Positions 18,047-21,886 of a stretch of DNA of 45,615 nucleotides are shown here, in pieces. The translations under genes and the position numbers were made by a program. Each line of letters starts with the position of its first letter. Positions within the stretch are counted from its first letter, which is position 1. A model generated the notes under the pieces. It ran no database searches and was not told the origin of the DNA. It worked only from the letters and a program-made list of their open reading frames with translations. The stretch comes from Cyanobium sp. (lineage in GTDB: Bacteria; Cyanobacteriota; Cyanobacteriia; PCC-6307; Cyanobiaceae): contig SLIG01000068.1 in NCBI GenBank assembly GCA_007135755.1, positions 1 to 45,615 on the forward strand, given 5' to 3'.

Positions 18047-18475
18047 GTGATCAGCCCCGTGCGATCGAGCCCTCCCCCCTCGTCAGCAGCCGATTCCGCC
18101 GCCCAGATCGCCCCCGGCGCTGGGATCGGTCGTGGGCTGGTCACTGTCCTGGTGGGGGCAGCGGCCGTGGCCTGTGTGCTGCTGGCGCTGCTGGTGCTGC
18201 CGGGGGCCGGCAGCGACCCGTACACCCGCCAGACCCTGGCGCTCAAGGGCTCCGCGGAGCATGGAGCCCTGCTGTTTCGCCTCAACTGCGCCGGCTGCCA
18301 TGGCATCGCCGCCCAGGGCCTGGTGGGACCCAACCTGCACGGCGTGGCGGAACGCAAGAACCAGCGCCAGCTGATCAGCCAGGTGGTGAGCGGCCGCACA
18401 CCGCCGATGCCCAGCTTCCAGCCCGAACCCCAGGCCATGGCTGACCTGCTCGCTTACCTCAACGGACTGGTGTGA
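18047..18475 (+). CDS. cytM: Membrane-anchored c-type cytochrome, cytochrome cM-like
   Basis: Electron carrier held by an N-terminal membrane anchor (about residues 31-53, VTVLVGAAAVACVLLALLVL) with a single haem site C-A-G-C-H at Cys81, Cys84 and His85. The likely Met ligand is in TPPMPSF. At 142 residues and one haem it fits cytochrome cM, reported to affect the switch between respiration and photosynthesis. I use GTG 18047, the only suitable upstream start; the leader before the helix is Ser/Pro/Ala-rich. Its stop overlaps the start of the methyltransferase gene by four bases. The specific name cytM is inferred from size and layout. Confidence 0.82.
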   Translation: MISPVRSSPPPSSAADSAAQIAPGAGIGRGLVTVLVGAAAVACVLLALLVLPGAGSDPYTRQTLALKGSAEHGALLFRLNCAGCHGIAAQGLVGPNLHGVAERKNQRQLISQVVSGRTPPMPSFQPEPQAMADLLAYLNGLV

Positions 18476-19311
18476 GCCAGGGCCCGCCCGTGGCCGCCGG
18501 ATTACGGCCCGCCGAATCCCTGGCGGTGGTGCTGGTGGAGCCGGCCGGCCCGCTCAACGTGGGCAGCGTGGCCCGTCTCTGCGCCAACTTCGGGATCAGC
18601 GACCTGCGACTGGTGGCGCCACGCTGCTCCCACACCGGTGAGGAGGCCCGGCGCATGGCCGTGCACGCTGGAGCGGTGCTGGAGGGAGCGCGGGTCTTCC
18701 CGACCCTGGAGGCGGCCCTGGCCGATTGCCGCCGGGTGGTGGCCACCAGCGGGCGAGGCTGCGGCGAACCCCTGCCACCGCTAGACCTCGACGGCGCCCT
18801 GGGCTGGCTGGAGGAAGACCCGGGAGACCCGGAACTGGCAGCCCCGCGAGCCCTGGTGTTCGGCCGCGAGGACCGGGGCCTGAGCAAGGCCGAGCTGCTC
18901 CAGGCCGGCCGCCTGCTGCACATCCACACGGCGGGCAGCTACGGCTCCCTCAACCTGGCCCAGGCCGCTGCCGTGGTGCTGCACCACTGGCACCGCCTTC
19001 GGAGCAGCGGCCGGCCAGGGACCGCTGCCGGCCCGGGCTCTGAGACGCCCGCAGGGGAGGCGGCCCCATGCCAGCGGGGCGCGCTGGAGGCCATGCTCCG
19101 CGACGCTGAAGGGCTGCTGCTGGAGGTGGGATTCCTCTACCCCCACACGGCCGCTGCCCGGATGGCCAAGGTGCGCACCCTGCTGCAGCGGGCCCAGGTG
19201 AACACCGAGGAGGTGGCCCTGCTGCGGGGCATGGTGCGCCAACTGCGCTGGGCCACGACCCGCGGCGACACTGGCACCACGGCGGGCACCGATCCCGCCT
19301 CCACCCCTTAA
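18472..19311 (+). CDS. TrmH/SpoU-family RNA 2'-O-methyltransferase (TrmJ-like)
   Basis: Knotted (SPOUT) RNA methyltransferase, 279 residues. Motif 1 is VEPAGPLNVGSVARLCANFG, motif 2 is ALVFGREDRGLS, and motif 3 is SYGSLNLAQAAAVVLH. The C-terminal extension after residue 200 (AMLRDAEGLLLEVGFLYP) matches the TrmJ-type subgroup, which methylates tRNA position 32; that target is inferred. The start GTG 18472 overlaps the cytochrome gene stop. An Ala/Gly/Pro-rich linker at about residues 180-200 separates catalytic domain and tail. Confidence 0.85.
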   Translation: MSQGPPVAAGLRPAESLAVVLVEPAGPLNVGSVARLCANFGISDLRLVAPRCSHTGEEARRMAVHAGAVLEGARVFPTLEAALADCRRVVATSGRGCGEPLPPLDLDGALGWLEEDPGDPELAAPRALVFGREDRGLSKAELLQAGRLLHIHTAGSYGSLNLAQAAAVVLHHWHRLRSSGRPGTAAGPGSETPAGEAAPCQRGALEAMLRDAEGLLLEVGFLYPHTAAARMAKVRTLLQRAQVNTEEVALLRGMVRQLRWATTRGDTGTTAGTDPASTP

Positions 19312-19337: not shown

Positions 19338-20393
19338 TTGAGCGCCGCTCAATCCCCCAGGAGTCCCCGCAGCCGCTGGCGGCACACCCTGCTGCTGCTG
19401 CTGCGGCTGGCCGTGATGGGCGTGGGCCTGGGGGTGCTCACCGCCACCGGGCTGCGGCTGCTGGCACCGCGACTGGCCGGGGGCAGCCTGCCCGGCCTCG
19501 GTCAGCTGGCCGAAGCCACGGGGCAGCAGGGCCTGGCCCCGGGGCGCTTCCAGCCCAGGCAGGAACTCACCCAGCTCAACCAGCGCTGGCAGCAGCTTGC
19601 CGCCGCCCAGAAGGACCTCAAGGCCAGCGGCTTCCTGCTGGTGCTCGATGACGGCCGTTTCGCCCAGCTGAACCCCGAGCAGCCGATGCCGGCGGCCAGC
19701 TCGATCAAGACACCGATCCTGGTGGTGGCCCTGGAGGACCTGGACACGGGCAAGCTCAGCTGGAACGACCCGCTGACGCTCACCCAGGAGCTGGTGGGCG
19801 GCGGGGCCGGCTGGATGGCCACCCGTCCGATCGGCACCCGCTTCCGCTTCTTCGAGGCGGCCACCGAGATGATCCGGATCAGCGACAACAGCGCCACCAA
19901 CCTGCTGATCCAGAAGCTGGGCGGTCAGGCCGCCGTCAACACCCGTTTCCAGGCCATGGGCCTGCCGGCCACCAAGCTCAACAACTGGCTGCCCGACCTC
20001 GATGGCACCAACACCAGCAGCGCCCGCGACCTGGCCCGCTCCATTGCCCTGGTGGACACCGGCGAAACCCTCAGCCCCCGCGCCCGCGACCATTTCCGCG
20101 AGATCATGGCCAGCTCCCGCACCGACACGATGATTCCCCAGGGTCTGCTGCGGGGCCTGGGGAAGAACGCCGACCAGCCCGATCCCGAGCTGCTCAGCCT
20201 GGGCGTCAGCGCCCTCAACAAGACCGGCGACATCGGCACCGCCTACGCCGATGCCGCCCTGATCCAGCTGCCCACGGGCCAGCGGGCTGTGGCGGCCTTC
20301 ATGGTCACCGGCCCCTTCAATGATCCCCGTTCCGCCGAACTGATCCGCTCCATGGCCGCGGCCGTGAGCCAGACCCTGGTGGGGCAGCCATGA
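19338..20393 (+). CDS. Class A beta-lactamase-like serine hydrolase
   Basis: 351-residue protein with an N-terminal membrane segment (LLLLLRLAVMGVGLGVLTAT) that should place the enzyme domain in the periplasm. The three penicillin-binding motifs are present: Ser121-x-x-Lys124 in AASSIKTPI, Ser182-Asp-Asn184 in RISDNSATN, and Lys295-Thr-Gly in LNKTGDIG. The omega-loop Glu166 of true class A lactamases is not: spacing and flanking residues align it with Leu218 in NWLPDLDGT. It may therefore bind beta-lactams without fast turnover, or act on peptidoglycan. The start is TTG 19338; no better one precedes the hydrophobic segment. The stop overlaps the DUF3370 start. Confidence 0.85.
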   Translation: MSAAQSPRSPRSRWRHTLLLLLRLAVMGVGLGVLTATGLRLLAPRLAGGSLPGLGQLAEATGQQGLAPGRFQPRQELTQLNQRWQQLAAAQKDLKASGFLLVLDDGRFAQLNPEQPMPAASSIKTPILVVALEDLDTGKLSWNDPLTLTQELVGGGAGWMATRPIGTRFRFFEAATEMIRISDNSATNLLIQKLGGQAAVNTRFQAMGLPATKLNNWLPDLDGTNTSSARDLARSIALVDTGETLSPRARDHFREIMASSRTDTMIPQGLLRGLGKNADQPDPELLSLGVSALNKTGDIGTAYADAALIQLPTGQRAVAAFMVTGPFNDPRSAELIRSMAAAVSQTLVGQP

Positions 20394-21886
20394 CCCAACC
20401 GCCGATGCAGTCGCGCCCCATGACTCCACACCCGCTCCGCCGCCGGATCCGGCTGCCCCTGCTGCTGGCAGCCGGCAGCCTGCTGCTGTGCCCTGCCCTG
20501 AGCCCGGCTCTGGCCCCTGCCCCGGCAGCCGCCCAGCAGCAGGGCAGCGAACCGCTGCTGCGCCGCCAGACCGTAGCCCCCCTGCCTGGCGCTCTGGATC
20601 AGGTGCTGATGGTCAACGACAACAATCCCGAGCTGATCAGAGGGCCGGGCATCCTGATCTCCACGTTCTCCGCCGCCGGCCGTTCGGTGCCGGAGGCCCA
20701 CCTCGATGTGGCCCTCGATGGCCGCTTCGACCTGTTCAGCCACCACGTCTACGCCGGCAGGCCGGAAACCCTCAACTCCACCCTGTGGCTGGCGGTGGTC
20801 GCCCAGCCCCGCGGCGACCGTCCCGTGCAGCTGCGCCTGCTGGAGGGCTCCACCTCCCTGTCCCAGTCCCTGGATCCGGCCATGGCCGGGGCCCCCTTCC
20901 TGCCCCTGCCACCCCTGCTGGCGGAGAGCACCACGCCGGCCTGGGCCGGGCCGGGCAGTCGTGTGGCCAGCGAACTGCTGCGCCGTGACCGCAGCCCCGA
21001 AATCCCCCAGGCCTGGACCCTGGAGCCAGGCCAGCCCACCACTCTGGTGGTGCTGCCCCTGCCGGTGCGGGGGCTCGACCCGCTGCTCAACGGCCGGAAC
21101 CTCCAGCTGCGCCTGCACAGCGACGGCCCCGTGAGCCTGGCCACCCTGGCCGCCTTCGGTCCGCTCGATCAGCCGCCAGCGGCCGACACCTGGGCAGCGT
21201 TGCTCGACGGCGGCCTCAGCCCCAAGGAGCACGAGCCCACCCCCCGTGGAGCCCCGGGGCGGATGATCTATTCGCGGGTGAGCGGTGTGCAGGTGGGCAG
21301 CGTCTGGCGCGGCACCATCACCAGCCCCGGCCAGGCCTGGCTGCGTGCCGACGCCGCCCCGATCTCCTGGCCGATCGCCTCGCTTGAGCGCGGCCGGCTG
21401 GGCACCGAGCAGGTGCAGACCGCCGAGCTGAAGGCCTTCTATCCCGGCACCGCCTGGGCCGCCCACGGCAACTACGGGGTGGAGTACGACCTCACCATCC
21501 CCCTGCGCAACACCGGAGCGGAGCCGGTGCAGCTGCAGCTGGCGTTCGAGTCGCCGATCAAGACCGATCCGCCCCTCGGCGGCCTGCGCTTCAACACCAC
21601 CCCGGTGCGTTCGGTGATGTTCCGCGGCCCGATCGAAGTGGCCGGGCTGGATGGCATCGGCGGCCGGCCGGCGGGACGGCGCCGCTTTCACCTGGTGCAG
21701 CGGGCCGGGGACCAGAGCGAGCCCCTGGGCACGGTGAGCCTGGCGCCCGGGGCCACCCGCAACCTGCGGGTGCGGCTGATCTATCCGGCCGACGCCACCG
21801 CTCCCCAGGTGCTGAGCCTGCTGCCCGTGAGCGCCAGCACAGCTGTGAAACAATCGGCCCTTCAGCCTGCCAGCAGCACGCCGTGA
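20390..21886 (+). CDS. DUF3370 exported protein
   Basis: 498-residue protein with a basic N-terminus (PLRRRIRLP) and a hydrophobic signal ([19 protein letters not shown]). The mature part matches the cyanobacterial DUF3370 family as I remember it, with VMVNDNN-like [20 protein letters not shown] near the start, [16 protein letters not shown] in the second half and FRGPIEV near the end. Function is not established; a periplasmic or surface role is inferred. ATG 20390 overlaps the previous stop; ATG 20420 is an alternative that keeps the signal peptide. The last bases overlap the chlI start, so the three genes look coupled. Confidence 0.78.

Follow-up and report, generated by a model that had tools for sequence, protein, structure and literature searches.

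What does a protein do that carries the catalytic motifs of a class A beta-lactamase, but has leucine where these enzymes have the omega-loop glutamate? The question is raised by a gene in the window, by which we mean the whole analysed stretch of Cyanobium sp. DNA, 45,615 nucleotides in length. An earlier note on this gene had proposed a peptidoglycan or signalling enzyme rather than a resistance factor. The proposal of a peptidoglycan enzyme is supported by the sequence, by the modelled fold and by the tree, and is already in print, as the window protein is an ordinary member of the published PBP-A family of cyanobacterial DD-peptidases. The leucine-for-glutamate observation is genuine, yet it is essentially explained already by the description of that family. 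Specifically, we predict, with a probability of roughly 0.93, that the gene product is a low-molecular-weight penicillin-binding protein of PBP-A type, anchored in the membrane and acting in the periplasm as DD-carboxypeptidase and/or DD-endopeptidase.

The gene, designated pbpA, occupies positions 19338..20393 of the forward strand, begins with a TTG start codon and encodes 351 amino acids. Its product matched the Pfam family Beta-lactamase2 (PF13354) with 171.6 bits. Among named relatives, L231 (Cyanobium sp. PLM2.Bin73) is the closest, with 97% amino acid identity to the window protein, and the two genes differ in 42 of 351 codons (30 synonymous and 12 non-synonymous differences). Given this high identity and the mostly synonymous codon changes, the forward frame was regarded as a real gene. 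A start codon was found at the equivalent position in the upstream stretches of five out of seven relatives (TTG in L231 and L197; GTG in L198, L201, and L246), and in the other two (L234 and L247) the match stops short of the start. Residues 13–48 (19374..19481, forward strand) are hydrophobic in sequence and form a helix in the model with moderate confidence, likely a membrane anchor or an uncleaved signal. The model thereby suggests that the protein may be anchored in the membrane through this helix, with its domain in the periplasm.

All three active site motifs are intact in the window protein, in agreement with the earlier note, and were located by alignment on the forward strand. The SxxK motif with the nucleophile, S121-S-I-K124 (19698..19709), aligns with S61/K64 of PBP-A, the SDN motif is formed by S182-D183-N184 (19881..19889), and the KTG motif by K295-T296-G297 (20220..20228). 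The short omega-loop W217-L218-P-D-L-D222-G-T-N225 (19986..20012; NNWLPDLDGTN in context) places Leu218, 36 residues past S182, at the position of the class A Glu166, and Asp222 at the position of Asn170, both as previously claimed. The span from Leu218 to Asn225 is 7, compared to 13 from Glu166 to Asp179 in class A numbering, so that the loop is six residues shorter. The same shortening was published for PBP-A: according to PMC7514474, six residues are deleted from its omega-loop and nothing in it corresponds to Glu166. Judged by sequence alignment, no other acidic residue would take over the deacylation position, an outcome that the earlier note had named as refuting its reading: Asp220 corresponds to an aspartate that is invariant in PBP-A (Asp160, 106/106 homologues), and the position of Asp222 is variable among homologues, with Lys162 in T. 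elongatus PBP-A.

A search of all PDB sequences returned T. elongatus PBP-A as top matches (2J7V and 2J8Y, E 4.8e-57; 2J9O and 2JBF, E 4.3e-56), followed by LRA-5 (E 2.4e-13) and other class A enzymes from about 1e-11. The window protein and the PBP-A chain are identical at 112 of 259 aligned positions (43.2%). Residues 71–269 align without gaps at a numbering offset of 60, with Leu218 opposite Leu158; in 2J9O and 2JBF, which are titled L158E mutants, the column of Leu218 is occupied by Glu. An AlphaFold2 model built on 27 aligned sequences (mean pLDDT 87.5, pTM 0.78) was compared to 2j7v_A with a Z-score of 40.4 and an rmsd of 1.4 over 265 aligned residues, whereas the best class A chains reached Z 32.5. 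Similarly, 11 PBP-A chains led the Foldseek results for this model (E 2.0e-30 to 4.4e-29), ahead of matches of 8.9e-18 and weaker. The NCBIfam class A model NF033103 gave 82.8 bits, which is under its cut-off of 200 bits.

In a tree of 77 rows, 70 PBP-A-type rows were separated from seven others with an SH-aLRT support of 96, a value obtained with a quick method and long outgroup branches. The window protein was found among the 70 PBP-A-type rows, in the clade of its host family (support 100). In the same quick tree, the picocyanobacterial clade stands on a long branch (1.06); its members contain an extra stretch ahead of KTG compared to T. elongatus PBP-A.

With PBP-A of T. elongatus (Tll2115; 2J7V, 2J8Y, 2J9O, 2JBF) the window protein thus has in common the Leu at the Glu166 position, the SxxK, SDN, and KTG motifs, the short omega-loop with LPD..GTN and, as modelled, the fold (Z 40.4). 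An N-terminal hydrophobic segment and a trmJ gene upstream are also shared with the T. elongatus-type locus (L085). The differences are a sequence identity of 43%, Gly156 instead of Glu96, Asp222 instead of Lys162, the additional residues before KTG, and a downstream DUF3370 gene that was not found at L085. Class A beta-lactamases (CTX-M and the ancestral GNCA/PNCA) share the overall fold (Z about 32 for the model) and the three motifs, but the window protein lacks their Glu166, carries Asp at the position of Asn170, has an omega-loop six residues shorter and scores under the NCBIfam cut-off. LRA-5 (8EO5, 8EO6), a metagenomic class A beta-lactamase precursor, also has the class A fold, and in the printed alignment 8EO5 shows Val, not Glu, opposite Leu218. 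It ranks second to PBP-A in sequence, but far below, and is without the LPD..GTN motif.

Across the phylum, 386 genomes were searched and 352 of them gave a match to pbpA. Conservation of the leucine in relatives, which the earlier note had put forward as a check, was assessed in 106 homologues, comprising those of all 42 matched genomes of the host family and 64 from other families of the class (approximately one per genus). Position 158 is Leu in 106/106, and Asp160 and the nucleophilic Ser are equally invariant (106/106 each). Leu was also present in 80/80 loci from named records; most of these records bear the title Cyanobium, Synechococcus or Prochlorococcus, and one locus (L263) is cut before SxxK. 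These loci were found by patterns containing SDN and KTGDIG, hence the conservation of SDN and KTG among them is by construction, while Leu158 lies outside the patterns. As the leucine occurs in all 106 homologues and all 80 loci, it is not due to chance, and a chance motif match was rejected.

Beyond the 106 homologues, a further 58 loci were inspected. Leu was found in 29/29 loci from four families outside the host's class (L118–L146), within L-P/G-D..G-x-N loops, and in 21/21 additional loci from within the class, most of which are second or later copies. The leucine-bearing omega-loops outside the host's class indicate that the PBP-A-type family is not confined to it. The remaining eight loci, distant relatives, showed Glu (two, L186 and L187), Met (four), Phe (one), and an unsurely aligned Leu (one). 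A record titled Bifidobacterium breve MAG (L215) contains a Cyanobium-like pbpA locus with 68% identity to the window protein and is probably a mislabelled bin. SxxK, SDN, and KTG were intact, as aligned, in all but three of the 106 homologues. The exceptions are small-genome relatives with KND/HSG (L053), SxxN (L052), and KAG (L047) in the alignment, perhaps decaying enzymes en route to loss.

The gene is embedded in a conserved neighbourhood. Profile matches and neighbourhood comparison identified a TrmJ-type RNA methyltransferase gene upstream (18472..19311, forward strand), which is a conserved neighbour and not part of the enzyme, and a DUF3370 gene downstream (20390..21886, forward strand; also in the ORF list), which overlaps the pbpA stop codon by four bases (ATGA). 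A same-strand TrmJ-type gene precedes pbpA in 77/80 named-record loci and in 64/76 other loci. DUF3370 follows in 59/80 named-record loci; of the 21 loci with the title Prochlorococcus, 20 lack it, and the only other named-record locus without it (L232) ends at a contig edge. In a related genus (g2, L282–L297) with genomes of 1.6–1.7 Mb, pbpA was absent from 16/16 sampled genomes, and trmJ and chlI are still adjacent, with frames 54–120 bases apart in 15 of them and 251 bases in one. This arrangement suggests a clean loss of pbpA during genome reduction in this genus. Given its absence from all 16 genomes, the gene is dispensable in some relatives.

What such an enzyme may do was judged from the characterised relative. 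In PMC11189452, the missing catalytic omega-loop glutamate is named as the key difference of PBP-A. DD-CPase and DD-EPase activities were measured there for PBP-A of T. elongatus, the CPase activity being blocked by penicillin G, and the enzyme is presented as penicillin-inhibited and not a useful beta-lactamase. With a Glu introduced at this place, the enzyme hydrolysed beta-lactams 90-fold better, but a natural beta-lactamase remained five orders of magnitude more active, and the mutant conferred no resistance (PMC11189452).

By analogy, Ser121 of the window protein would be acylated by D-Ala-D-Ala ends or at a 4-3 cross-link, presumably assisted by Lys124 and the SDN and KTG residues. A water molecule not positioned by Glu166 would then free the peptide acyl-enzyme, and the enzyme would in this way trim or open peptidoglycan stem peptides. 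Beta-lactams would acylate Ser121 as well, giving a long-lived acyl-enzyme with slow release, and therefore the protein would be a target of penicillin and would not confer resistance to it. In the host genome, an assembly in 196 contigs, one S13 (DacB-type) DD-peptidase gene was found, and an S11 (DacA-type) gene was not detected at E 0.001, which leaves room for a DD-carboxypeptidase; PBP-A could supply much of that activity. The host genome also encodes a second, distant PF13354 protein (L002:721-2028) in which SVVK, SSND, and KAG were identified by eye and a signal sequence is not obvious. Among the literature matches listed, no biochemistry on picocyanobacterial PBP-A was found by title or abstract start, and none of the matches listed in a separate search on Gastranaerophilales contained that word. 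No literature was found that joins PBP-A and beta-lactamase with peptidoglycan and Synechococcus.

One rival reading is a class A beta-lactamase, slow or atypical, that uses Asp222 (at the Asn170 position) or Asp220 (at the Glu168 position) as general base in place of Glu166. In its favour, the two aspartates lie beside Leu218 in the omega-loop, and the Asp222 position is acidic (D or E) in 60/106 homologues. However, this position varies widely, with Lys in the T. elongatus enzyme, and Asp160 is already present in wild-type PBP-A, whose penicillin G acyl-enzyme was crystallised according to the title of 2J8Y. Moreover, the class A score remains under the NCBIfam cut-off (82.8 vs. 200 bits), the tree and the modelled fold both place the window protein with PBP-A, and the two cyanobacterial homologues with Glu at the Leu218 site (L186 and L187) fall outside the PBP-A-type clade. 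Class A beta-lactamase identity was rejected on account of the lacking Glu166, the low score and the tree, and we consider this reading highly improbable.

The signalling role suggested by the earlier note found no support. A catalytically idle sensor of beta-lactams or muropeptides could be imagined behind the single N-terminal hydrophobic helix, and the three small-genome relatives with altered motifs, as aligned (L053, L052, and L047), might be read in the same direction. Against this, SxxK, SDN, and KTG are intact in the window protein and, as aligned, in all of the 106 homologues but those three, the profile search matched no signalling domain, and the neighbouring genes (TrmJ, DUF3370, and ChlI) are not regulators. 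With the motifs intact, a signalling pseudoenzyme was rejected and is given hardly any chance.

For the PBP-A-type DD-peptidase, substrate selection deserves separate consideration. PMC11189452 reports that T. elongatus PBP-A prefers stem peptides amidated on D-iso-glutamate, and proposes Glu96, from MD simulations, as the selector of amidated muropeptides. The alignment places Gly156 of the window protein (19803..19805, forward strand) at this site; Glu96 is a property of the T. elongatus enzyme and does not define the family. Position 96 is Gly in 91, Glu in 12, His in two, and Asp in one of the 106 homologues, and Gly in 79 and Glu in one of the 80 named-record loci.

MurT is the ligase for amidation of peptidoglycan D-iso-glutamate. 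It was sought with the Pfam MurT_C profile, a search that covered MurT alone among amidating enzymes. MurT_C matches were obtained in 254/386 genomes, and none in the host's own genome. Likewise, no MurT_C match was found in genome G089, which encodes a PBP-A with all 259 of 259 residues of the crystallised chain. A full-length MurT query (L193, adjoining a GatD-like gene as judged by eye) reached 977 bits in the genome it came from, but the highest score in the three genomes of the genus of G089 was 33.3 bits; the score in G089 was 32.4 bits, over part of a 901-residue frame.

Within the host family (n = 42), where 41 genomes are MurT-negative, position 96 is Gly in 40, Glu in one, and Asp in one. 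Outside this family, MurT-positive genomes (n = 47) have Gly (42), Glu (3), and His (2), and MurT-negative genomes (n = 17) have Gly (9) and Glu (8); Glu96 is commoner there without MurT (8/17) than with it (3/47). On the tree, Glu96 changes at least nine times, with only two to three independent pairs on supported branches, and no link between Glu96 and MurT emerged in either direction. If anything, the counts outside the host family run opposite to the simple reading, and the MurT-positive genomes with Gly96 defy the rule that Gly means no amidation.

Because of Gly156 and the absence of a MurT match, the published specificity cannot be transferred to the window protein, and it may not be family-wide in PBP-A. 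The nearly constant Gly at position 96 in picocyanobacteria, together with the extra stretch before KTG, implies that the substrate preference may differ from that of the characterised enzyme. A possible, though rather doubtful, extension is that selectivity for D-iGln-amidated substrates is local to Glu96-bearing members and not a PBP-A trait. The window enzyme, with Gly156 and no MurT match, would then cut non-amidated stem peptides at neutral pH, and the D-iGln preference of the T. elongatus enzyme would reflect a non-MurT amidating enzyme or an in vitro property without a native D-iGln substrate.

The occurrence of a homologue in 352/386 genomes, with Leu for the catalytic Glu in 106/106 of those examined in the host's class, removes the reading of pbpA as a resistance gene. 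Of more interest is that most homologues examined lack the proposed selector, so that the specificity model in print can be tested directly.
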